From the NCBI GenBank assembly GCA_002749535.1, contig MZZL01000031.1:62001-126000 (forward strand): DNA of 64,000 nt, given 5' to 3'. Numbering within the stretch: position 1 is the first letter of the stretch; every line of letters starts with the position of its first letter. This DNA is from Apophysomyces variabilis. Lineage: Eukaryota > Mucoromycota > Mucoromycetes > Mucorales > Mucoraceae. Under the pieces are notes generated by a model. The model was not told where the DNA came from, did not search any database, and worked only from the letters and a program-made list of their open reading frames with translations. Of the stretch, positions 10,548 through 37,205 are shown in pieces. The position numbers and the translations under genes are program-made.

Positions 10548-10940
10548 AGCATCTCACTTGTCAAGTACAATACATCATCAGACAAACGAACCGTCGGTTT
10601 AATTGTAGATCATTTATAGGTGTGCAATAACCGTAGAGAGAAAAAAAAAAAGTAAGATCACCGCTGCGGACGGTGTCACTCGCCATAGCATACTAGTTTG
10701 CAAACATTGTGAAGTACTATGGCAGTGAGATATTAACGCTAGCAAATACTGTTTTCTCGATCGCGCTGTTCACTTTGGTTGGGCGAGAATGGCTGCAATG
10801 GTTCTCCCTTCCCCCAGACTTTACCAATATCCCCAACGTGAACGCAGGTCTTCCCCTCGCAGACATTTCGATTTTTGCTGGAAAGTGCATTAGAAAGTGT
10901 TTACAGTTAGGAATATTAATATCTAACTTTCGTAGTTAAT
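10548..10940 (+). pseudogene. Fanzor C-terminal exons, dead (copy 0)
   Basis: Near-identical to 24358-24696, with a few substitutions and an A-run length difference. After an intron ending ATAG the frame reads VCNNRREK.. ITAADGVTRHSILVCKHCEVLWQ, then TGA at 10726-10728, then DINASKY. It aligns with the intact copy at 34732 onward (VCHSCRC..HHSILVCKNCKMLWDRDVLGSK). The first zinc pair is lost and the RuvC-III Arg codon is a TGA, so no active nuclease can be made. The conserved 3' motif lies about 60 bp further on, at 11000-11047. Confidence 0.8.
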
Positions 10941-11047: not shown

Positions 11048-11414
11048 GCGACCAGGACCTTATCGTTGGAGTGCCTATGGTAATATGATATAGTAACTAA
11101 TTTATTGCTGCCTTTTTCCGGGCATTTTCTTAACAATTCATGGGGTTGCTGTAACTGACGCGCTTGTACTGGCATACAAGCGAGTCTATCTTTACCATTG
11201 CTATTGTTAAGATCTCTGCATCCCAAGTTCTGTGAACGCTTTATAAACAGGTTTTCGATTTAACCTGATGAATTGATGTAATATCGCTAAATATGATCCA
11301 TGCTCTTAGATCATTAGCAGACTCTTGAAGCGTTTATCCAATCAATTTCACTTTCCTGCGTGACTCGTATGTGCAATGGCCAAATCCTCACCTCACTGAA
11401 GTCCAAATGCCGTT

Positions 11415-22387: not shown

Positions 22388-24700
22388 AATTATGAAGATT
22401 CCGGGCAGATATTTGAATCAGAAGCATGTTTTTGTTCAAGGAGCAAGGCAACTACATTAGCAAACATGGATACCCATCCCCACTAATTAGATGATGATTG
22501 TAAACGCCCCGATGCTTAAAACAGTTGATGATAAAGGAATATATTTAACGAAGATGGTGTAGCCGATTCTGTTTGTATCATGTAAAATGTCAGGTACCTG
22601 TATGATGTATGGAAAAATAATAAGTAGAAGTTAAACCGTATTAAACATACCATATACAGTGAATAAAAAGAAAGCCAATGATAATTATTTACGTAGCTAT
22701 TTTAAATTGGTGAATATTATGTCGAGACATACAACAGAGGCTTACATGCTGTTTAAAGGAAGCCATGGCTCTTAACGCAGTGATCCTCGTTCTCAAATAT
22801 CCTGCGGATTATCTCAAGTTCAAAATAATCACCGAGCTCCTAAGTATGCTACCATATCAGCTTCTTTAATTACGTAAAATACCGTTATAGTTGTATCGTA
22901 TGGTGAGCATATTAGAGAAGTATCATGTAATTTTAGGAATGCTAATCTTGCCCTTAATTTGGTAAAGGAGAAAGTAGAAGACAACTAGAAAAATGGAAGT
23001 TTTACAGCCCATTCATTACGATCCTGTTTTATCCACGTAACGGGATATAGAGTACATATTAACAGAGAGTTTGATTGTTGTTTGGTATTAGAAAACAATG
23101 ACAATTATAACACTATGGCGGTAAATTTCACCACAAGTGTACAAATTATAGTATCAACAACCCTTTTATCGGACGGAAGAGCTCACGGTGGCATCTCATG
23201 CTTGATTCAGATCTAAATGGATTTGTTTTCATTGCATATACACCGGCACATGCTCCTAGATCAGGCCAATGAAAGCTTTGTAGACAGTGACCCAAGAAAT
23301 AACCACTCTGTTTTCTTTGCATGGTTTCTTTTATAGTCTGGAACAATTGTTGTGGGGAACAGGCAGCAGAGGTCATGTCTACTTCCCACGAAGGTCTGTC
23401 CCGATTCTACGTCTTATTTTAAGAATTTATGACGAAGAATATAAAAACAGCAAAGGTTCTGACGAGGAGCTTCCGCGGCGATTCAGCTTATTACCCATGC
23501 TGTCTACAAAATGGCGATTTGCCACAATCAATGCAAAAGCCTTATCATGCTTAACCAGATCCAATTTGGAAGGGGCTCTTTGAGAAGAACATTGCGTTAT
23601 TTCATACCGTTTTTGACTTTACCAAGCTATCGTACCAAAGGTAAAATGGAGAAAAGCCATACGTAAAAGAAACCTAACTCCATGGTGGCTAGTGTTGAAG
23701 AACGAAGCAACTCGTCAAAGGATCGCGGCGGTATCTTCGCTGGTCAAATTCTCTCATGTGGTTTGGTAGTTGACTTCCATTTTGCGAGAAGATCAGGAAA
23801 GAAAGAAAGGGCTTAAATTCGGAGCAGACCTCACTGCTAGAGATTTTACAGAAGAGGAGATTACGGGTTGCTTCGAACCGTGTACAGTCGACCCTAGCCG
23901 ATCACAAGTGTTTACGGTCGCATATGGGTGCGGCGAGAGTCCACATGAAATTCGCAAATGCAGTATATGGAAGAACTATATACACTGGATCCCGCCGTGC
24001 GTGGAAAATAAAGTCCAGGCAGGAAAGAAAGAAGCAGGTATCGAGCCTATCGAAACGGATATACAGAGTGGAAAACCGTAGAGTCTCGACATGTATGGCA
24101 GTTATGTCCGCTGCACCTTTCAGCATATAAATGCGCTATTTGCGTTCTATGGGCCATCAGAAGCAGAGGGAATATTTCCGGATTACCAGGGCTATAAAAA
24201 TTCGGAAAAGGTGCTGTTGATTGTATTCGGCTATGAGATGTTTGGGAAGGATACGGTGAGAGCACAAGGGTCATCGGACTGGTGTAGTCTGCAAGTTGTG
24301 GAAGTACATCAAAAGTAGAGAACGAAAAGGTGAGTTACTGACCGTCAAGATGGATAGGCATCTCACTTGTCAAGTACAATACATCATCAGACAAACGAAC
24401 CGTCGGTTTAATTGTAGATCATTTATAGGTGTGCAATAACCGTAGAGAGAAAAAAAAATAAGATCACCGCTGCGGACGGTGTCACTCGCCATAGCATACT
24501 AGTTTGCAAACATTGTGAAGTACTATGGCAGTGAGATATTAACGCTAGCAAATACTGTTTTCTCGATCGCGCTGTTCACTTTGGTTGGGCGAGAATGGCT
24601 GCAATGGTTCTCCCTTCCCCCGGACTTTACCAATATCCCCAGCGTGAACGCAGGTCTTCCCCTCGCAGACATTTCGATTTTTGCTGGAAAGTGTAGGGAA
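22388..24700 (+). mobile_element. Fanzor element copy 3 (degenerate)
   Basis: The left part (22388-23230) is homologous to the inverted-repeat arms at 28-31 kb. Shared blocks include GATACCCAT..ACTAATTAGA, GTAGCCGATTCTGT and the KIITELL..LPYQL peptide, with about 165 bp missing relative to 30263-30428. The right part is a broken Fanzor gene. The element ends near 24700, where similarity to the relic at 10.9 kb stops. Confidence 0.75.
23385..24696 (+). pseudogene. Fanzor nuclease pseudogene (copy 3)
   Basis: Aligns with the intact copy from the FPGSYIPVLAYILTEYN region onward. Pieces in shifting frames: VPILRLILRIYDEEYKNSKG with LPRRFSLLPMLSTKWRFATI; FEKNIALFHTVFDFTKLSYQ (one-base shift near 23580); FAGQILSCGLVVDFHFARR; CTVDPSRSQVFTVAYGCGES (RuvC-I Asp kept); YGPSEAEGIFPDYQGYKN joined directly to VLLIVFGYEMF (basic linker deleted); then LTVKMDRHLTCQ, an intron, and VCNNRREK. 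The catalytic Glu of the IDEY motif is Arg (MDRH), the first CxxC is gone, and TGA at 24532-24534 breaks RuvC-III. The intron before VC is at the same site as in the intact copy. The N-terminal third is missing. Confidence 0.82.
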
Positions 24701-24783: not shown

Positions 24784-26405
24784 CAGTACACTATGGGAAA
24801 ATTTTCGTCGGGTACGTCGGGTCTCCTTTAGCTAACGACGAACCAGACGAACCCGACGAAGTTGCCGCCGTCGCAGTTACCCCCTTTCTCTCCACCTATT
24901 CCTAGCTTCTAGTATCCGTTTCTATTGATTATGCATTGTAAAGAATAAGACAGTATAATTAAAACAGGGCAACGAATAGCTTTATTTCTTTTTCGCTTAA
25001 GCTTTTCTACACTTGTAGCAATCCGAGTGATTCGAAGCATTTGTCCTTTTTCTTCTGTTTCGTCCCTCAGCCTCTTTCGAGCTATAAACATAGAAGAACA
25101 GAGAAAGCTTAAGTCATTTAAACTGTTGTTCGAAACTTACCAACGAGTGACACTGGAGGACACTGTTTCCCCTCTCATCTCTATACCTGGTGAATGTTGC
25201 TGCGAACTATTTCCATGTGATATAAGAAAGAAATTTTAACCATTACTTACCACTATATAATCTATCTTGCTAGAACTTTATACACTTTACTAGAAGCACT
25301 GCTCTCACGGTGCTAGCTGTAGAGATGCCTGTATTCGGCATTTTACGCTAGTACGATTGTACCAATGCTTTCACAACAGGTACTGCGAGGCCAAGTAACC
25401 TTCGCACTGGTTCAGTAGACCTTGTATTTGAGAAGGGCCATTCTGTCCAGGCTGTCAATGGCCTCTTGTTTCTACCAGAAATGCACGTCCTTTCAGTACA
25501 TATCGGACCGGTCTTTGGCTTGCATTTATGCCCATCACCAGCTTTTTGATCACCAGGTTAGAGATGTTACTGATAGAGATATAAGTGTCTGTTATAACGC
25601 CATCGGGTATCTCCTCTTTCGGGTTGACAACAAACTGCTTGACCAGGCCTATATTCATATCCAAGGCTTGCTTCTTTTCCAGGGCATCCGTTTCGTAAGT
25701 TGCCTTGATGGTTCCTGCGGACGAAGTTGGTAGAGCCACGTTACCAATATCATTGTTCTCAGAGAGCGACAGAGGTAGAACCTTTCAATCTATTTTAATC
25801 TCTGTTTCGTCAGCCTTCAACTCCTCGTGCGATCTTTCTTATTCTCTAGGCGGATGTTAATCCCATTGGTATCAGATGGGTTAGTCAAAGGAAAAACGAA
25901 GAAAAAAATGTTTGCGAGAAGTAACCGCAGCAAATTGTATATCGGTTTCGGTGTAACATCTCAGCAATCTAGTCAACGAAACGTATATAACCTTGGAGAT
26001 AAATAAACCTACGCTCGCTACAATAATAGTTTTAACTTACTAATTCTATGTTCATACCAAAGATTCATAAAGTGTTTATTTTTCCTCAAACATGATAATA
26101 ATGCCCTATCACAGCAACTTTTTATACACATTGATGTACAAGCTATACGGGATCTTACGTGAAGCCACAGTGTTTGCCGATGTATCTCGCGTATATACTG
26201 GGCACTACTAATGTGTACCATGGCTTTGTTGAAGGAGGGCTCGACCTGATAATTTTGAGCAAATCTAATAGCCGATATTAAGGAAAAAGGAACCGTTTTT
26301 AAAAATCTGTCTCGTCGAAAAGATGAATAGCGGAGAGGAATTGACTTAGTGAAAATATCTTCGATTTCCCGACGAATCCGACGAAAAATTTCCCACCGTG
26401 GTTTG
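24784..26405. mobile_element. Candidate DNA transposon with imperfect terminal inverted repeats
   Basis: The left end CAGTACACTATGGGAAAATT, then TTCGTCGGGTACGTCGGG (24784-24821), is mirrored at 26368-26405, read on the - strand as CAAACCACGGTGGGAAATTT then TTCGTCGGATTCGTCGGG. The left end follows a TA dinucleotide, as in Tc1/mariner elements; the right end does not show TA. The left end also folds on itself, because GACGAACCCGACGAA at about 24855 is complementary to the TTCGTCGGG runs. No transposase is recognised inside. The right end sits exactly where homology of Fanzor copy 1 breaks off. Confidence 0.45.
25455..25739 (-). CDS. Unrecognised open frame inside the TIR-bounded element
   Basis: A 94-codon frame with protein-like composition (MNIGLVKQFVVNPKEEIPDG, then DTYISISNISNLVIKKLVMG). 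No start, splice or family can be confirmed. It may be a fragment of a transposon-encoded protein. Confidence 0.3.
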   Translation of the reverse strand: MALPTSSAGTIKATYETDALEKKQALDMNIGLVKQFVVNPKEEIPDGVITDTYISISNISNLVIKKLVMGINASQRPVRYVLKGRAFLVETRGH

Positions 26406-28141
26406 CACCACGATGCTTCCGTTTCCGATAGTTGTATTTACGGCCTCCGTCTATCAAAATATTTGCCAACTCTTCTACCGCTCGTTGCCTGCCTTGATGG
26501 TCGCGGAACCGCCTCTCTCGGTCATTTGGCCCGTAGAAATTGAATAACACATCTTTGTGCAAGAAAAAGTAATCCACTCGTGCATTGTATTTGCGGATAT
26601 CGTATGTTTTTGCACTTGGAAAATTACTCTCGATGGTATCAATGCCCTGATGTCTTTTTTGTTTCAGTAGCTGCTGACCCCTTTGAGGCGACCCAAGTCA
26701 TGCAGTAATACTCTGCAGAAGAACAGCGGCGGATTTCATGCTCTGTTTCACCAGCACCATATGACGCAGTATATAGATGCCGCACGCCAAGGTCAATCCC
26801 ACACACACGATAATATCTGTTGATGTCCTCAGTGGTAAAATCTCCAAGTTCAAGCTCAACCGTGTTAAGCTTTGCACTGCGAGCAGTTACCTTCATAGTC
26901 GTCTGTATCGTTTCTGACTTGAACCAACGCTCTCAAAGCCTCTGCATTAATGGTGACGAAGCGAAAGTGGAAGGAAGGTTGAGGTGCTAATGGAAACAGC
27001 CTAGGCAAATTGCCTGATTCCTCGTCGTCGTTCTGTTGGTGCTGTTGCTCGTACATGTCTGATATAACACGCAATACAGAGATACATACCCCAGGTCGTT
27101 CCGATAAAGCCTCGAGAGTGCACATTTGGGGCATCAAGGGAATAAGAAAATCACGCGAGGTTAACAACTGCAAGGAATAGGTCGAAGGACGCATTTTCCA
27201 AGCATGAGGGCCAAGCTGCTCACCACCGGCAATGCTTTCGTACAGATAATCATACGTGATCCGACTTGCAGAAGATTTACATAGATTCTGCAGTGGGAAA
27301 CAATAAGAATGTCATTGAATCAGGCATATAAATTTCTGTTGCGCTGCCTTACTGGAACAAGCATTTGAAGCCTATGAATGATGAATCCGCAAAACTCTTT
27401 GTTGAAAATTTTCAACAATGTCGTTTGTATAAGTATATCGCAATGTCTTGCAAGCCGCAGAAAGAGCATCACTGTATCCAGTGAAGTTGTTTCTCGGGAA
27501 AACAATAGCAGGATGCCGCTCGCGAAATTGATTCCAAAAATCGTAAATGTTGTCTGGCATATGAGGATTGGTGTTCGTCACAGAGATATTCATCACCAGT
27601 TGTGCGATCGAATACCAAAAGCTCTGTGAGTACAGATACACTGGGATTTCTCTCTGGCTATATTCAATTATATATGCATTGACAAAGAACTGCATTCAGA
27701 TTATAAGGTTGCGCATGAATTCCGATAAAAACCTGATGTGACTTTGCAAGAGAGTTGCGTACTCTGGACGGACGACATTTTGAAACAGTATTTTTCGTGA
27801 AAATCTTTCCACTTTGTTCCCATATCGCACTTGTATTTCTTGTTTAATCGTACGGTTCCGGCGTTGTCGACGAGCAGCACCAGGGTTCGCGTTCAGCGCA
27901 TCCCTTGAGGTACGTCCTTTCTTTTTTTCAGCCTTCTGTTCTTCTGTGCCAACCTCAGTTGCTTTTCGTTTTTTCCCAACTGCAGTAAAGTATCAGAATC
28001 AGTGTGAAATTATCAGGCGTTAGTAAGAAGATTCTGACCTCGTTTATATGATTCACGAAGGCGACATTTCTTACTTGTCTTTAGTTTATGGCCGTGTTCA
28101 TCACAATGACGACAAGCAGCTTTCAAGTTCAATTTAGTATG
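26396..28141 (-). pseudogene. Fanzor nuclease pseudogene (copy 1)
   Basis: Homologous to the intact copy over most of its length, reading leftward. An N-terminal zinc knuckle CRHCDEHGHKLKTSKKC (about 28.07-28.13 kb) precedes VGKKRKATEVGTEEQKAEKK after an intron. Then come VNAYIIEYSQREIPVYLYSQ, NFTGYSDALSAACKTL, NLPRLFPLAPQPSFHFRFVT, CGIDLGVRHLYTASYGAGET (RuvC-I Asp kept) and VLFNFYGPNDRERRFRDHQG. Lesions: TGA at 27696-27698 where the intact copy has Arg; a frameshift near 27400; loss of about 65 residues near 26885; a second frameshift near 26655. The frame is truncated at 26396, so RuvC-II, the zinc finger and RuvC-III are gone. Confidence 0.85.
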
Positions 28142-29545
28142 ACTTTATGACAAATCTTTGTTTTTGGCCTCCTCTTCTTTTTGAAGCTTTTCCGCTTTTT
28201 TAAATGTTGCAAATAGCAAAGGTGGATAGACTAATATATTGACTGAAATGAAAAGAACCGATAGAAAGTCTATGAAATCGTAAAATAGGGAATCAGTCAT
28301 TATGGAGAACGATTGAAGGGAAAGAGAAAGGAAAAGCAAAACTAGACTTAAGAAAGAGGGATTATATTCTCGTTTGTCAAAATCATTGTTTGACAACATT
28401 TGGTTTTACACCCCATTCATGCGTACTTATGATTTGGAACCCACGGTTTTGCCAAACTTCATCTATTGCACAAGTGGTGAAAATGGACTCAAATAAAAGC
28501 AATATAACGGTCAAAGTTAGAGAAATCGCATAGGAAGATGCGGTATGTGATGCCTCGTATCGGAACAATTGCTTGATTGCCGAAGAGAAGGGAGCAATCA
28601 TTTGACGGCCACTGTCAGTAAGGTTTCATTTGCCTGATTTAGGAGGGTGTACCAGTGTGTATGAGATTAGAATGAATTCATCTAGAGATGATACAGGCAT
28701 GATGTGCCATTCGTGGTCATCGTCTGCTCAAAGAAGGGCCATTGATACTACTCTTTGTACACTCATTGTTAACTTTACCGCTAAAATATGAATTCATCGT
28801 TGTTTTCATTAGAAAGAACAATCAAACTTTCCTTGATATGCATTCTGGATCGCACTTTATAAACAAAACAGGATCATATTTAGTGGAATTTTTGAAGTCT
28901 TTCATTTTCTAATTTTCTGTCACTTATTGATGTAATAACTGATTACGCCATGAATAGCGGTCCCAAATAGGAAGTGCTACTCTCCTTTGTGGAACACAGC
29001 GGGGCAGCTATGGATGAGACCTCACGTATTGAGGAAGCTGATATGGTAGAATGGTCAAAAGTTCCGTGATTATTTTGTTCGTGACAAAATCAACAGGATA
29101 TTGAGAACAAGGATCAGATGGTTGGGGAACCATGGCTTGCTTTAAATATCACGTAAGCCTCCATGAGATGTGTTATAGAATTAGCCGAAAGTAAAAAGTA
29201 GAAGTAGAATTGAAAGCCAGCTATTTAATTAGCCTGCACTTAGAGAATAAAGAACTCTTTCAGCTGTATCCATTCTGACCCTGGAATTGTAGCCCTATAT
29301 TATTCTACTACGATCCTAATCTAGTAATCAATAAACAGTATGTCTCGACGTAATACTCAGTAATTCAAACTATTTACGTTGAAAATTACTACTGATTTTG
29401 TTTTGTTATTGTAATTGATATATTTGATAAAGTTCAATTTTTACTTACTGTCTTTCCATACATCATACAGACATCTGGCGTTTTGCATTACACAGACAAA
29501 ATCGGCTACACTGTTTTTGGTGATGTTTTCCAGTATCCTCAACTG
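28141..29545. repeat. Left arm of a diverged long inverted repeat
   Basis: Reverse-complement homologue of 30040-31394. The outer end is TTGTCATAAAG on the - strand and the inner end is CCTCAACTG. The arm continues directly into Fanzor copy 1. Small indels and substitutions throughout show it is old. Copy 3 carries a third version, which extends the homology of this arm inward to about 29690. Confidence 0.85.
28145..28601 (-). CDS. Hydrophobic protein segment conserved in both arms
   Basis: Two adjacent frames, 28383-28601 (YEASHTASSYAISLTLTVIL, then LFESIFTTC and DEVWQ) and 28145-28399 (MTDSLFYDFIDFLSVLFISV, then YPPLLFATFKKAEKLQKEEE). The right arm encodes recognisable equivalents (ESIVTTCVMDEVWQ; MTDSVLHISIDLLFALFISI), so the peptide, not only the DNA, seems conserved. 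Both frames contain membrane-length hydrophobic stretches followed by a charged coil. It may be a separate small membrane protein or 5' exons of the Fanzor gene: the intact copy has a similar hydrophobic stretch plus the KYFQQEAERLKREE coil spliced to its zinc knuckle. No complete gene model can be given. Confidence 0.4.
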
Positions 29546-30039
29546 TTTTAACCACTGGTTGTTTAAAATTATCTTCTAATTAGTGAGATGGGTATCTATG
29601 TCTTCCTGATGGAGTTACGCTTGCCGCTGAACGAGCACACGCTTTTGATTCAAAATCTCTTATTGGAATCTTCATGGTTTGATTGGAAGATTCTGTAAAA
29701 TTTGAATCTCCGATACTTCAAACAATTTTGGGTGGAATCTTCAAAAACTTTTGAAAAAACCAGTGTCAGCTGTAATGACTGTTTGGATCAGGTTACACTA
29801 ACACCTTTTATATTCTATTCATCTGTTGCTGAGACACCAGCGGACACAGAATATCAAAAGACAGAAGATTAACGTGTCATTACCGATCGTACGGATTTTA
29901 CAAAAGATACTAGTAACTACCCCAACCCGCTTTTACCCGCACGCACTGTCTAAAATATTTAAAGAGAGCAATTAGTTATGAAATAAAGATAATCAGAGTC
30001 TCGCTTATTTTTCTAGCGTCTGTTCTTATTTTTATACAT
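29546..30039. other. Spacer at the centre of the inverted repeat
   Basis: About 494 bp separating the arms. It holds the conserved 52-bp motif at 29713-29764 (+) and an AATAAAG-containing AT-rich tract near 29982. No gene. Confidence 0.55.
29713..29764 (+). repeat. Conserved Fanzor-associated motif, copy at 29.7 kb
   Basis: ATACTTCAAACAATTTTGGG, then TGGAATCTTCAAAAACTTTT and GAAAAAACCAGT. It matches the motif downstream of the intact Fanzor (35141-35214) and the relic (11000-11047), all on the + strand. Confidence 0.65.
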
Positions 30040-31394
30040 CAGTTGAGGATACGCGAAAATATCAGCAAAAGTAATGTAGCCGATTCTGTTTGTCTCATGC
30101 AAAACTCCAGACACTTGTATGATGTATGCAAATACAATAAGTAAAGGTTAAACTTTATTAAACATATCATTTACCCTAGCAATGAAAAGAAAATCATTGA
30201 TAATTATAAACACCGACAGTTTGAATTACTGAGTATTATGTCAGGGCATACTGTTACTGACTACTATATTAGGATTGTAGTAGAGGACAATAGAGCTACA
30301 ATTCCAGGGTCTAAGATAGATATAGCTGAAAAAGAGTTCTTTATTTTTCTAAGCACGGACTAATTAAATAGCTGGCTTTCAATTCTACTTCTACTTTCTA
30401 CTTCCGGCTAAAGTCTATAACACATACCATAGAGGCTTACGTGATATTTAAAGCAAGCCATGGTTCCCCAACCATCTGATCCTTGTTCTCAATATCCTGT
30501 TGATTTTGTCACAAACAAAATAATCACGGAACTTTTGACCATTCTACCATATCAGCTTCCTCAATACGTGAGGTCTCATCCATAGCTGCCCTGTTACGCT
30601 GAATAAATGAGAGTAGCACTTCCTGTCCAGGAACGTTATTCATAGTGTAGTTAGTGATCACAAGAATAAGTGATAGAAAATTAGAAAATGAGACTTAAAA
30701 AGGTCCACTAAGTATGACCCTGCTTTGTTTATAAAGTGTGATCCAGAATGCATATCAAAGAAAGTTTGATTGTTCTTTCTAACAAAACAATGATGAATAC
30801 ATGTTTTAGTGGTAAAGTTAACAATGAGTGTACAAAGAATTGTATCAATAGCCCTTCGTTGAGCAGACGATGACCGTAATGACACATCATACCTGTATTA
30901 TCTCTAGATGAATTCTGATCTCATACACACTAATGCATTCTGGTTGGTGACACGAGGCATCACATACTGCACCTTCGTATTCTCTTTCTCTAGCTTTGAT
31001 AGTTATATTGTTTTTAATTGAATCTATCGTCACCACCTGTGTAATGGACGAAGTTTGGCAAAGCTGTGGAAATCCGCATTATAGGCACGTGTGAATCGAG
31101 TGCGAAACAAAACGTTATCAAAGGCAAAACCTAGTTCGAGTCCAGTCAGAGAGGATACTTGTTTTGACAAGCACGAATATAATACTCTTTTTCTTACGTC
31201 CACTTTCCCTTGGTTTTTCCTTCAATGGTTATCATCAATGACTGATTCCGTATTACACATTTCCATAGACCTCCTATTTGCCCTTTTCATTTCCATCAGT
31301 TTATTAGTCTATTCACCTTTGCTTTTTTCATGATTTAAGAAAAGCAGAAAAGCTTCAAAAAGTAGAGGCCACAAACAAAGGGTTTGTCATAAAG
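30040..31394. repeat. Right arm of the long inverted repeat
   Basis: Homologous in reverse complement to 28141-29545. It includes the ILVLNIPVDFVTNKIITELL peptide that also occurs in the copies at 10.3 and 22.8 kb. It lies upstream of intact Fanzor copy 2 in the same orientation relation as the left arm to copy 1. Confidence 0.85.
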
Positions 31395-32034
31395 GCTTAT
31401 CTTTTTGACCTACAAGTGTCTTTGTATACATTTCAAAATTAGATATTGTAATCTTCTTTGACAGAAGTATGAGTATCGTAGAATATAGCAGTATACTGTA
31501 TGATTTACACATACGCGACATTTGGCACGACTCACCTGTCAAGTATGTGATATCGGCTTGTAACTTACAATTTCGGAAAACCGGTTAGGCCTACACATCT
31601 TAAAAGTCCTGTTTAGCGGGGCTTGTATGGTTTTGATAACCTTGAATTAGTAGCGCAGCGTAGACCCTGAAGCTTAATTTGACATTCTTGTTTCAAGCAT
31701 GATGCGTCTCTGTTTAAAAAAAGTTGTCCAACCTACCAGCTTAAAAAATTTAATAGAATTTGTTTTGTTAGAAAAATGAAAAAGTCGGTCTTAAACTTTC
31801 GAAGGTCTTATTTATGAATGTCGAGGAATAGATCATTGAATGGCATAATGGAAAAAGTTGTTTCCATGTAAAGACGACGAAGTTATAGTCTGGATACACC
31901 GTCATTAATAAGTGAAGAGCAAAAGTTGTCCAATTACGCATGTGACGGTTTCGGATTACCATCGTACCTTAAAAGAGACAACAGAAGTAACAAGAACATT
32001 CTATCACATCTCTTTTGCGTTGTCTTTTCTCATT
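31395..32034. promoter_or_regulatory. 5' region of the intact Fanzor gene
   Basis: AT-rich, with no clear coding exon before the open frame that begins (without ATG) at 31912. It presumably contains the promoter and any upstream exon; no specific site can be named. Confidence 0.35.
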
Positions 32035-35000
32035 ATGCTTCAAGCCGTCTTTGAGTGGTGCTGTTCAAAATTGACAGCTTTGATTCCGCGTTCCTATGAA
32101 TGGAACTGGCAAGGTATCGTCTGCCTTTGCAAAATCAGAAAATATTTCCAACAAGAAGCAGAACGCTTAAAACGAGAAGAAGGTGAGTCTTACAGAAGGG
32201 ACAAGTTTTTCTTGATCAATAGCCTTATTTATCATTGCACACATATCATGTTCAGTCTTTTGCAAAGACTGCGGGCAGAATGGTCATCCAAATAAACGAT
32301 ACAAGGCATGTCCATTGAACGCGCGCCATGGAAAGAAACCTGGTAAGCTAATACATTTTCTAATCCGCAACGTGTCTCTGATAACGTCCCTTCCTGTGTA
32401 AGTTGGAGTAAAAAGAAAATTGAATGCTACAGAGGAGGCAGAGTTTTCAGCGGCAAAAAAACGTGGAAGACAACTCAAAGCGGAGGAGACATCGAATCCA
32501 AATAAATCCAACAAACCATGCCCGAGCTGCGGCGGTATCGATCATTCGAAATCTTCTTCTAAAAATTGCAGGAAACCCTCCAAAACGAAAAAGAGCGTTA
32601 TCGCGGAGAAACTAAACGACAATCATTACGAAACTTTTACTCGAAAGTTACCAACTTCATCTGTGGTGCGTCAAGAATTTCGAGAGATTTTCCAGGAGAA
32701 TAGCGTTCGATTATCGGCATTCCTTAGGGAAGTTATCTTCCGTGCTCAGCTACTTGTCAACTCGTACATTATTGCGAACTGTGATAGACCGGTGCCTTCT
32801 TATATTTATACTCAAAACTTCTGGTATTCGGCGTGTCAGCTTATCATGGGCATCAATATTAGCAACAACAACCCCAATTTCCCTCAAGACCTACGTGATC
32901 ACTGGAGAGCGTTCTTGGATAACCATCCAAATGCTCTTTATCCTGTTAGGAATTTTTCCGGTTACAGTGATGCCCTTTCCGCGGCCTGTGTCACGTTAGC
33001 CACCACATATTCCAACAATGTCGCTGAAAACTTTGAAGGTCGCCTAAAGTTTTATATCTCGAGACGACTTACAAAGCTTATACTTGTAAGATGAAAGCAT
33101 ACATAGTGCATACCTCTCAACTAACTATATATGTATAGGGCTTGTCCCAAAAAAATGCAAAAGCCATTACAGGAGACTATATTTATGAACTACTTGCTAG
33201 AGGTGATCCTCACTGGCCTTTCGAAGATGAACTTGCCGTCTCGGACTTTGATCAGGCTGTAGAAACCATTTGTGGCGAGTTTGCGACACTAATGCCCGAA
33301 TGGCAAACAAACGCGGAAAAACTATCTGCTTTTCCAGGCAGCTACATTCCAGTGTTAGCGTATATACTCACCGAATACAATCGAGAGCATGAAGAAGCCA
33401 AACAAAAACAAAACGCTCAAGGAGAGCAATACGATCCAAAAAACGAAGAAGCCGAAAAAGCAAAAGGTAGTTTTAAGGATCTACCACGATTGTTTTCTCT
33501 GTCTCCGTCTCCTTCAACTCATTGGAGATTTATCTGCGTTAATTCCAAGACCCTTCAACAGTTAACGAACATCAGCCACCGAAAAGACTATGAGGACCAG
33601 CTTGCCCAGTTTTATCAAGTTTTTGATTTCCACAAGCTGGGATTTGACAGGTATTTACTATGATTATTTATAGCTAAATCTCTCAAAAATGTTTGTTAGT
33701 CTGGAGCAGCTTCAAAATTTCGGTAACAGTGGACGAATCGCTTTCAAAAATGTTATCTTCACCGATGGCTACGCGATTGACTTCCAGTTCGCTCGCGCAC
33801 GAAAGATTGAGTCAGTGGTCACGGACGCCAGCCTCTCTGTTGAAGACATTGACGGTAACCATATCTATGACAATTTTGCACCATGTGCGATTGATCCGGG
33901 CATCAATCAAGTCTTTACTGCTTCTTATGGCTGCGGATCAGAACCTCACGAAATAAGGAGATGCTCAACCAAAGAATACTATGTGTATACCGGTTCGCCG
34001 AATAGACAGAATAAAATGGAGAAGGAAAAAAAGCAGCAAGGTATACAAGACATTGAAACCTCATTGGAGTCTGGAAAAACAGCTCACATCGAAGCCTACG
34101 ACGGTTATCTACGATCTATATTCGGCAATATGGACGTGCTTTTCCAGTTTTATGGTCCGCATCGAGCTGAAGCTCGATTTCGAGGATATCAAGGCGTGCA
34201 AAGAGCAAGAGAGGAAATGGTCAATATACTAGCATTTGGTGGTAAAAAGTACAACTGTAGCAGACGGAAACGGACGAGATCAAACAGAAAATCCCGGAAA
34301 AGGAAGCGAAAAAGTCGGAAGAAGCATGTCAATAAAGATTCAGAAGTTGGCAATCCGTTACACCAAAGGTTAGTATTTATCTGCATGACAGTTCGTTACC
34401 TGCAGGAATTAACAGCTAATTGATAGCCTTCCCCAGCCAAATACATCTGCCGAGCGCAGTACGCTTAAAAAAACCAAGCGTTTACCTCACTGGAGGCAAA
34501 AGAAATTCACTGTTGAAAGGAAAGTGCCACTCATTGTATTTGGGGACGGGATGTTCAACAATCGATGCAACTACAAAGGACACCGAAAGGGAGTTGTGGA
34601 TATCCTATGGAGATCTTTGAAACGGAGAGAAAAGCGCGAAGAACTATTGGTGCTCACGATAGATGAATACCTTTCTTCGCAAGTAAGTTGGAGCGATTGA
34701 TACTAATATAATGCTCACAAACGTCGTTTAGGTGTGCCATAGCTGCAGATGTAGGTCCCTGCAAAAGCTTACCACAGCCGATTGCGTTTCTCACCATAGC
34801 ATCTTGGTATGCAAAAACTGTAAGATGTTATGGGACCGAGACGTCTTGGGCAGTAAAAATTTTATTCTTGATTGCGAAGTCAATTTGGTCTGGGCAAGGA
34901 AGACCAGGAGAGTTTGCCTTGCCCTCATTAGATCAATATACCGCCGTTACGAATACGGTTGGTCCCTCTGGGGCCTTTTAGGTTTTTACGGTACGTGTAT

Positions 35001-35085
35001 TAGCCAATTTTTCTAGTTAGGATTGTTTTACTAACGTTTATCTTTCGCAGGTGGTCACGCCGGTAAGTTCACTATCACAGTTTAA
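32035..35085 (+). CDS. Fanzor (eukaryotic TnpB-like RNA-guided DNA endonuclease), apparently intact
   Basis: Predicted RNA-guided nuclease of about 880 residues. Proposed exons: 32035-32182, 32256-32342, 32403-33085, 33139-33650, 33700-34368, 34427-34682, 34732-34990, 35051-35085; all introns are GT..AG and every junction keeps frame. Features in order: a hydrophobic start and KYFQQEAERLKREE coil; zinc knuckle 1 CKDCGQNGHPNKRYKAC; zinc knuckle 2 CPSCGGIDHSKSSSKNC; the helical FWYSACQLIMGI / NFSGYSDALSAAC region; RuvC-I CAIDPGINQVFTASYGCG; a very basic linker (about 34.26-34.33 kb, possible NLS); VPLIVFGDGMF; RuvC-II/alternative Glu in VLTIDEYLSSQ; the zinc finger CHSC..CKNC; RuvC-III LWDRDVLGSKNF. 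The D/E/D set is complete. The Glu in the IDEY motif next to the finger is the rearranged site described for Fanzors. The start is uncertain: 32035 is the first in-frame ATG seen, but the frame is open back to 31912 and an upstream exon is possible. Confidence 0.88.
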
Positions 35086-35140
35086 CAGAGGATAATCACT
35101 AACAGTTTGTTGGCAAATTATTTATAACTTTTATACCCAA

Positions 35141-35214
35141 ATCTTCAAACAATTTTGGGTGGAATCTTCAAACAATTTTGGATGAAATCTTTAACAACTT
35201 TTGAATAAACCAGT
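35141..35214 (+). repeat. Conserved motif downstream of the intact Fanzor (candidate element end or guide-RNA region)
   Basis: Three ~23-nt units starting ATCTTCAAACAATTTTGG, ATCTTCAAACAATTTTGG and ATCTTTAACAACTTTTG, ending AATAAACCAGT, 55 bp after the stop. ACCCAAA at 35135 can pair with TTTTGGGT at 35153. Related sequence lies about 60-100 bp after the Fanzor relic at 10.9 kb. Sequence similarity stops after CCAGT in this copy and at 29.7 kb. Confidence 0.6.
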
Positions 35215-35649
35215 AATTGAGAGAGAGAAGAGAGAAGAGAAAACTCAGGTCGCTGTGGCTTGTGTGACTGTTTATTTAAGTAGCAAAAATTTCTTGCAAA
35301 AACTGGTATAAAAATGCCTGCGGGTTTCAAGTTTCAGTTCCTTCCTTGTCCTTTTACAAAAGGTGAGTTGTTGGTTTCAATTGCTTGTCAAGAACGAAAG
35401 TTGGAAGAACGCGTATAGTGGTGATGAGATTGTAGTACATAGAGTCAAGCACTGAGCGGATGTACTGCGAGTACATACTTGATGCTAACTGTATTTTCTG
35501 AGTAATCAACAATCGCGAATTCTCTCTTTCGTTCTTGATTTAACACTTACAAGAAACAAAATGTCTAATCCGTATTTGTTTCATAGATCTATTCCTTGAA
35601 GTTACAATAGGCTCATTATATATAACGATAATAATAAAAAAAATTTTCA
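35215..35649. other. Intergenic, boundary of the mobile-element island
   Basis: A GA-rich short tandem tract (about 35218-35242) follows the motif. No gene seen before the stop of the cyclodeaminase-family gene. Confidence 0.45.
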
Positions 35650-36678
35650 TTAGAAAGGAACAACTGAGCCCAAGTTGGCTTGTTTGGCCTTCTCCAAAAT
35701 GAAACCTGCCACAGCGCTATCTTGAACACTTATCCCAACGCTTTTGAACAGAGTGATCTTTGAGCGTTTTGCGTGTTTGTCAAGTACGATTTGTCCCAGT
35801 TCTATCCAGTCTTCTGGTTTAGATGATTTGATAAGTTCGCCAGCTTCTTCTTTGCATGCTTCGACGGAATCGACCACAAGAGAGGTTACGCGTTGAATGG
35901 TCTCAGAGTCGACCTCATGCATAGTAGGGGTATATGAGCCTATACAGTTGAGATGAACACCATCCTTCAACCACGTTCCCCGTAACACCGGCTCGGACGC
36001 ATTCGTACATGTACACACAATATCCGCTTTTCGGACGGCAGCCTCTAAGTCATCTACAGCTGCGACATGATGGGATGGATAGGCTGCTCGTATCTCTTTG
36101 ATAAGAGCGTCACGCCTCTCTGCCCTACGGTTCCAGATACAGATATGCTCAATACTAGGCCGAACAGCGAGCATCATATCGACATGAGCACGCGCTTGAG
36201 CTCCAGCGCCCAATATAACGAGATGTTTAGCATTTTCAATTGCGAAATAGCGCGTAGCGAGAGCAGAACCTAAAGTTATAGTTTGAGAAACTAAAAATTA
36301 ACTCTTTGACAAAACCTTACCTGCTGCTGTTCGCACAGCTGTAAGTGCTGAGGCATTGATAACTGCTTCTACACTTCCTGTAGCTTCATCCAGCACAAGT
36401 ATGGTCGCGGGTAAACCAGCTTTGGTGTCGCCCGTAGGTACGCTCACTACCTTAACGGAAGTGGTATGGTGAAGCCGCGAGGGCATGAACAACACTTTGT
36501 GAGCATCGGTCACTACCCCGATTCTCTGAGGTGCTTGTGCAGATTTGCTGTCGGTACCCTTAGTGGCAGTATACGTAGCAAAAGTGTCAGCCATGAGATC
36601 AACTATTTCTAATGCAACGGATGAATCTCTTTGGAATAACAAGGAGTCGACATCGGCTTTAGACAGAACACGAATCAT
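35650..36678 (-). CDS. Ornithine cyclodeaminase / mu-crystallin family protein
   Basis: NAD(P)-dependent enzyme of the OCD/mu-crystallin fold; members act as ornithine cyclodeaminases, imine reductases or thyroid-hormone-binding proteins, and the substrate cannot be told here. Start ATG 36676-36678 (MIRVLSKADVDSLL). Two exons, 36321-36678 and 35650-36269, joining ALTAVRTAAG to SALATRYFA in phase. Seen: the KVVSVPTGDTKAGLPATILV substrate-side segment, the Rossmann motif LVILGAGAQARAHVDMMLAV (about residue 130), IVCTCTNASEPVLRG, and HLNCIGSYTPTMHEVDSETI. The C-terminus is TLFKSVGISVQDSAVAGFIL. Full family length, about 325 residues, intact. No obvious targeting signal. Confidence 0.9.
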
Positions 36679-37205
36679 GGCCAGTTACGAAGAAAGAAGG
36701 CTAACGATTGTTCACACGCTTTGCGGACACAAGAATTTCCTCATTGTATCACCGTGGAATCAGAGCAAACGAAGTAGGCGGCTCTTATGAAAGACCTTCG
36801 AGCGATAGATTCTCGACAAACCAGCCTTTGACAAAACGAAGATTACGTGCGTACATCTATGATGCGCACGGTGTTCTTTGTTTTATGGTTAAAGAGTTCA
36901 GCTTATTTGTATTACCACTGTGTTATTAAGGAACTTGCTTTGTTTTCTTCTATGCTATGAATACGGATCAAGAGAGAAAGTTTTATTGTTTAGCAATTGT
37001 CTGGAATGGCGCACAACTCTTCCATGTCATTAGGGTCATTGTACTGATATCTTTATTCAGTATCGTTTAATAATAAGTCGATGGCACAGATTGGGTCATT
37101 CATCGTTGCAATTTAAACGAAACAGCAGAGATTGCAGTCTGGATCTCACTCTTCTACACCTGTGAGCCCAGGTTTCTTCTTTTTTCTGCTCATTCCTCAT
37201 TCTTC
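36679..37205. other. Divergent promoter region
   Basis: Lies between the cyclodeaminase-family gene (-) and the CRIB gene (+). Small frames at 36545-36929 overlap the gene or lack support. No sites recognised. Confidence 0.45.

Follow-up and report, generated by a model that had tools for sequence, protein, structure and literature searches.

Does the gene at 32035–35085 of the 64,000-nucleotide stretch of DNA analysed here (hereafter the window) encode an intact and possibly active Fanzor nuclease, as an initial annotation of this locus had it? Fanzors are relatives of CRISPR nucleases. The explanation that we hold with considerable confidence is that this gene is a Fanzor1 copy in a Tc1/mariner-type family, that its element has lost the transposase part and its C-terminal tail is out of frame, and that in working copies of the family the nuclease would favour retention of the element by cutting at 5'-RCTA. 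This corrects the call of an intact nuclease and suggests that gene conversion from dead copies is able to inactivate Fanzors in a multicopy family.

The first point is the identity of the gene, which we conclude, by sequence, is of Fanzor1 type on the combined grounds of profile, structural-database and fingerprint matches. PF07282 (Cas12f1-like TNB) is the sole Pfam family above the cut-off in the 882-aa form (E 2.6e-7, aa 765–828) and is found with E 3.9e-8 in the 867-aa form of intact sister copies. The single PDB match at E <= 1 for the 882-aa form is Guillardia theta Fanzor1 (GtFz1, 9cer, E 7.4e-5), to which the 867-aa form adds Spizellomyces Fanzor1 (SpuFz1, 8gkh, E 2.8e-4), both matches being short stretches; a protein-database search with the 882-aa form yielded 5797 candidates, none at E <= 0.001. 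As fingerprints of Fanzors, PMC10711439 gives DPG, RD, the TDG of the WED domain and a Glu that stands six residues ahead of a C4 finger. All of these are there: in the intact form, FTDG lies at aa 497, the RuvC-I IDPG at aa 541–544 (present in the window copy too), and E780 of IDEY six residues ahead of CHSC in the series CHSC-x21-CKNC..WDRD, although the x21 finger spacing exceeds the x12–18 of the published search pattern and the Asp–Glu distance is 238 rather than 120–160. Membership in the TnpB/Fanzor group and the rearranged catalytic Glu near the finger, both read from motifs by the initial annotation, are thus borne out, the former also by the Pfam match. That the protein is under selection is weakly suggested by codon-position counts in diverged copies compared with copy L011, since the third-position excess falls chiefly in exon 3 and is small in exons 4–5.

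The gene model rebuilt for the window copy has seven introns, all GT-AG and 49–73 nt long, and the joined exons form an open 882-aa frame:

32035–32182, + strand: exon 1, starting at ATG 32035; this ATG and the splice sites are the same in the close copies L009–L016
32256–32342, + strand: exon 2, with a first C-X2-C-X4-H-X7-C knuckle at 32261–32311 (rebuilt splicing and pattern scan)
32403–33085, + strand: exon 3, with a second knuckle at 32519–32569 (rebuilt splicing and pattern scan)
33139–33650, + strand: exon 4, within the 525-nt genome query that has 33 matches including the window
33700–34368, + strand: exon 5, with the TDG of the WED domain and RuvC-I IDPG (catalytic Asp codon at about 33893–33895)
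34427–34682, + strand: exon 6, with the rearranged catalytic Glu of IDEY (codon 34665–34667)
34732–34990, + strand: exon 7, with the CHSC..CKNC finger and RuvC-III WDRD (Asp codon 34840–34842)
34991–35050, + strand: intron 7 of the earlier model, a conserved intron that, in intact copies, directly follows the stop codon
35051–35085, + strand: exon 8 of the earlier model, 3'UTR in intact copies and no coding exon of the family

The eight-exon join without a frame break therefore stands for the window copy, whereas exon 8 does not stand as a family coding exon. Intron 7 is probably real, judging from aligned right ends, because, read by eye, 21 of 22 right-end sequences have a GT donor immediately after the stop position (GC in L094) and an AG acceptor follows that donor in 21 (the exception being L095), but it is located behind the stop codon. 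TAG occupies the stop position in 20/22 of these sequences. The anchor at which they were cut spans both the stop site and the donor, so that the counts are only partly independent. The set was obtained from 42 stretches after removal of 8 without a recognisable right end, 3 without the anchor and 9 near-identical ones.

Where the window copy departs from its family is seen by comparison with its sisters. Across the 38.7-Mb genome, the exon-4 query has 33 matches, one of which is the window copy; 20 of the other 32 were read with their flanks. Eight of these (L009–L016) are 98.5–99.4% identical to the window over the main aligned part; L017 is also close, with a long N gap that prevents its frame from being judged, and the others are more diverged. 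With the window exon map applied, an 867-aa frame is open in four of the 20 (L009, L011, L013 and L015), and three of them (L011, L013 and L015) combine it with the catalytic triad. In L009 (C95:1795600-1805500), the frame is open and WDIY stands where the catalytic WDRD is expected. Copies L010, L012 and L014 have in common a one-base difference in exon 3, and their first stop falls at aa 205. The frame of L016 runs to a stop at 826, and the remaining 11 copies (L018–L028) all have earlier stops. The intact proteins end within exon 7, with a C-terminus of the form ...WDRDVLASKNLFLIAESIWSGQGRPREFARPSL...GDF and a stop aligned to window positions 34979–34981. This tail can be aligned with the C-terminal end of SpuFz1 (8gkh, WNRDMLSTCNMLLIVRSMLDGHGRPEVFSRS) and resembles the tail of the strongly diverged family L033 (WNRDVNAAKNLFEIAVSVWSTGNRPAVFSRP), the L033 copy being broken too. 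In contrast, the window copy leaves the intact frame directly after WDRDVLGSKN, so that its last 54 residues (829–882) are out of frame relative to the intact copies, L033 and SpuFz1, and the SpuFz1-like tail that follows RD in L011, L013 and L015 is absent. The window copy is thus not intact, contrary to the earlier description, and because a conserved tail has been replaced, the suggestion that it may be an active nuclease appears unlikely.

The origin of this altered tail is apparently DNA copied from a decayed sister by gene conversion, a reading that rests on the way in which similarity switches along the alignment:

34751–34994, + strand: apparent gene-conversion tract of 244 bp, with 2 differences to L024 and 13–15 to close copies, and with the reverse relation in both flanks

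Within the tract, the window differs from the degraded copy L024 at 2/244 positions and from L010, L011, L013, L015 and L016 at 13–15/244; L024 is its nearest relative there among 17 copies compared, the next one having 13 differences. In the left flank (31900–34750) there are 178/2851 differences to L024 and 12–22 to the same five copies, and in the right flank (34995–35215) 26/221 and 1–6, respectively. Against the intact L011, the counts are 12/2851, 14/244 and 1/221 for left flank, tract and right flank. The frame change itself comes from a length difference of one base close to a homopolymer, and some copies contain runs of N, both of which could speak for a sequencing or assembly error; we nonetheless regard such an error as highly unlikely, because L024 has the change too and it sits among further shared differences in a tract whose two flanks show the reverse. 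The same data bear on the idea of an intact, active window copy whose 882-aa product is the true family form. Its frame is open with the catalytic residues and intron 7 is conserved, yet three intact copies, L033 and SpuFz1 agree on a different tail in another frame, and the window tail belongs to the tract that matches degraded L024, which makes this idea very improbable and led us to reject the 882-aa product as the family protein. We give somewhat more weight, while still considering it quite unlikely, to partial function of the 882-aa form in binding guide RNA or DNA or in weak cutting: the Asp, Glu and Asp codons all lie upstream of the frame change, but the lost tail is conserved as far as SpuFz1. 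We take that tail to be the last RuvC helix.

Upstream of the nuclease part, the two CCHC-like knuckles pointed out by the initial annotation, which suggested that they could bind guide RNA or target DNA, are indeed present at the positions given for exons 2 and 3. The pattern C..C....H.{5,9}C without a stop has three matches in the six frames of the 64-kb window: the two knuckles themselves and one match where a nearby Fanzor relic begins. Both knuckles occur in the window copy, L019, L020, L022 and the strongly diverged L033, while by pattern L024 has the first only. A literature search found no paper linking Fanzor with CCHC or a zinc knuckle, and the N-terminal 171 aa gave a best E of 1.5 against the PDB.

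The second point concerns the carrier of the gene, a transposon whose parts in the window are as follows:

29669–35215, + strand: element A, a class-1 Fanzor element with the left transposase part missing
35198–35215, + strand: right end of element A, CTTTTGAATAAACCAG plus TA; the inward terminus is TACT in 42/43 right ends used
29669–29765, + strand: terminal-repeat copy at the junction of element A with the left end of element B; an internal repeat in class-1 copies
26302–29765, - strand: element B, a degraded Fanzor element head-to-head with A, sharing terminal and 5' sequence

The copies read have terminal inverted repeats, TACTGGTTTTTTCAAAAG... on the left and ...CTTTTGAATAAACCAGTA on the right. 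The right-end motif is found in 17/20 copies (not in L018, L023 and L028) and is followed by unrelated flanks, and left ends start with TACTGGTTTTTTCAAAAG-like repeats. A genome pattern scan allowing up to two mismatches returned 90 terminal-repeat ends against 3 for the reversed pattern. TA is present at 29/30 left ends used and right ends were selected with TA, so that the reading as a target-site duplication rests on these end TAs; no empty insertion site was seen. Class-1 copies are about 7 kb long, as in L015 (C94:1887799-1894865, 7,067 bp), and their left 1.63 kb, which we had considered as a noncoding MITE, carries a transposase: a 466-aa ORF with PF13358 (DDE_3, E 3e-21) and PF01527. 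A genome search with this protein found four near-identical (99–100%) open 466-aa frames, as well as a 93% relative of 473 aa in a C93 element, beside which no Fanzor match is listed. In L015, the transposase (466 aa) and Fanzor (867 aa) frames are both open. The window copy lacks both this left transposase part and any separate outer left end, and instead meets the left end of element B at 29669–29765.

Several other Fanzor remnants lie on the left side of element A. The Fanzor gene of element B (26302–28114, - strand) is degraded, with DLG in its RuvC-I region and a single knuckle; more degraded pieces at 23353–24630 and 10654–10830 (both + strand) have nearly the same C-terminal peptide; and two terminal-repeat-like ends at 11050 and 12159, separated by 1109 bp, are identical, as is the sequence that follows each of them, which looks like a tandem duplication. 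The genome is Fanzor-rich, with at least 73 PF07282 matches, near-identical class-1 copies not being among the matches listed. On the other side, a host gene at 35650–36684 (- strand), presumably an ornithine cyclodeaminase relative, ends about 430 bp from the right end of the element.

Across this family, the element ends are, at the sequence level, far more alike than the Fanzor genes between them, because both L033 and element B share ends or 5' parts with the class-2 copy L020 while their proteins have diverged. At the DNA level, L033 and L020 align in patches only. The main ones are a left-end patch of 283 bp (86%), a further 199 bp of 5' sequence (73%) and a right-end patch of 279 bp (71%), and except for some 40 bp directly upstream of the stop they lie outside coding exons. 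Element B matches L020 over 1.68 kb of 5' sequence at 83%, and its protein is about 33% identical to the window Fanzor in the longest aligned stretch. This likeness of ends could stem from exchange between elements or from constraint.

The third point is a marked asymmetry of the insertion sites. In left flanks, TA is preceded by C in 25/30 cases and by RC in 23/30, against 6/43 and 1/43, respectively, in right flanks (Fisher test, 2.4e-9 for C and 7.4e-12 for RC). The inward terminus TACT is found at 42/43 right and 10/30 left ends, a contrast that is softer because related copies share termini by descent. These counts cover distinct flanks of ends within the stretches read, and not all 90 and 68 genome pattern matches. 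Rows were dropped for class-1 internal repeats (L010, L016 and L057), for degraded ends (L060, L064 and L059), for the window end near 11–12 kb, for the shifted right end of L026 and for an additional, shifted row belonging to L025; L027, L045, L068, L086 and L089 were placed by hand in the right set, which required TA. RC still precedes 23/37 left ends if the three degraded ends and L027, L045, L068 and L086 are counted as left without RC. For SpuFz1, Saito et al. (PMC10432273) describe two conserved bases, CA, on the outer side of the left repeat, and by assay they obtained 5'-CATA as the TAM. Because this left-flank CA plus TA equals the TAM, we predict that 5'-RCTA is the TAM of the present family.

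An alternative, which we think unlikely though not negligible, is that the RC bias stems from an asymmetric choice of targets, made by the transposase or by an element end, rather than from a Fanzor TAM. The flank data alone cannot separate insertion preference from retention, and the one transposase-only element examined (C93: L054, L061), whose two ends have AC and GT, is uninformative. Against target choice, the terminal repeats are alike at both ends and Tc1/mariner targets are symmetric. Moreover, SpuFz1 has the same pattern together with its assay-confirmed TAM, as described in PMC10432273.

A guide RNA would be expected from the right side of the element:

34982–35215, + strand: 3' region from the stop position to the right end, candidate omega-RNA scaffold by position
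35216–35235, + strand: unique right flank, predicted guide segment on Fanzor precedent

The 3' region and right flank are a candidate omega-RNA source by virtue of position and precedent. The 3' region has a mean identity of 84% among 22 sequences, in which RNAalifold found no conserved guide-RNA fold: the energy z was -1.05 against column shuffles, and the covariation term was equalled or bettered by 87/100 of them.

Taken together, we picture that in working copies the transposase would move the element between TA sites, the Fanzor would be loaded with RNA from the 3' region and right flank and would cut the emptied or uninserted site at 5'-RCTA plus guide, and repair would then restore a copy of the element. 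The window copy would no longer be an active nuclease, while its right end could still yield a guide RNA. A broader proposal, which we put forward tentatively and with less than even confidence, is that a two-knuckle Fanzor1 lineage and a Tc1/mariner transposase share one chassis, that the RCTA TAM is legible in the left-flank bias, that the nuclease selects the insertions that are retained, and that homogenised noncoding ends, as guide-RNA source, are swapped among strongly diverged Fanzor genes. The genome offers intact Fanzor1 copies, and in one of them (L015, C94) a transposase frame, also open, lies within the same ends; these copies and a concrete TAM prediction make the role of the Fanzor for its transposon testable.

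Comparison with known systems places these findings. Two fungal systems are similar in part. Like MCi-2 of Mucor circinelloides, the window family is multicopy, with Fanzor 3' parts that are nearly identical and 5' parts that vary, but MCi-2, as characterised in PMC3627910, has 11–12-bp ATAATT-type target-site duplications, no recognizable terminal inverted repeats and a partial Crypton transposase in one subfamily, unlike the TA, terminal inverted repeats and DDE_3 transposase found here. No long repeat matching between the left and right flanks compared was seen by eye, and an MCi-2-like or Crypton origin was rejected given the terminal inverted repeats and DDE_3. PpFz1 of Parasitella parasitica is likewise a fungal Fanzor1, with a solved structure, but in the description in PMC11423790 it has the TAM ATN and an FRI domain; the PDB matches listed for the 882-aa and 867-aa forms do not include it. 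SpuFz1 of Spizellomyces punctatus is similar in lying in an inverted-repeat element with a conserved left-outside dinucleotide matching the TAM (predicted in our case), in its RNA-source region between stop and right repeat (here by position), both as presented in PMC10432273, and in the homologous C-terminal tail of intact copies. It differs in its TAM, CATA rather than the predicted RCTA, and in that its inverted repeats flank no transposase in that account, whereas here the transposase shares the ends. Finally, the carrier type is already known, since Fanzor1 occurs in the Tc/mariner elements PGv-1, PUl-1 and PUl-4 (Bao and Jurka 2013, PMC3627910), which, in the passages on these elements, have Fanzor1 with or without a Mariner-like transposase within TA-flanked terminal inverted repeats, and related members sharing ends and differing in their 3' parts. 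Compared by description and not by sequence, the window family is unlike them in the internal terminal-repeat copy between transposase and Fanzor of class-1 copies and in the two N-terminal knuckles of its Fanzor. To this, the present analysis adds the intact sister copies and the apparent conversion tract, together with the ends shared with a transposase and a predicted TAM.
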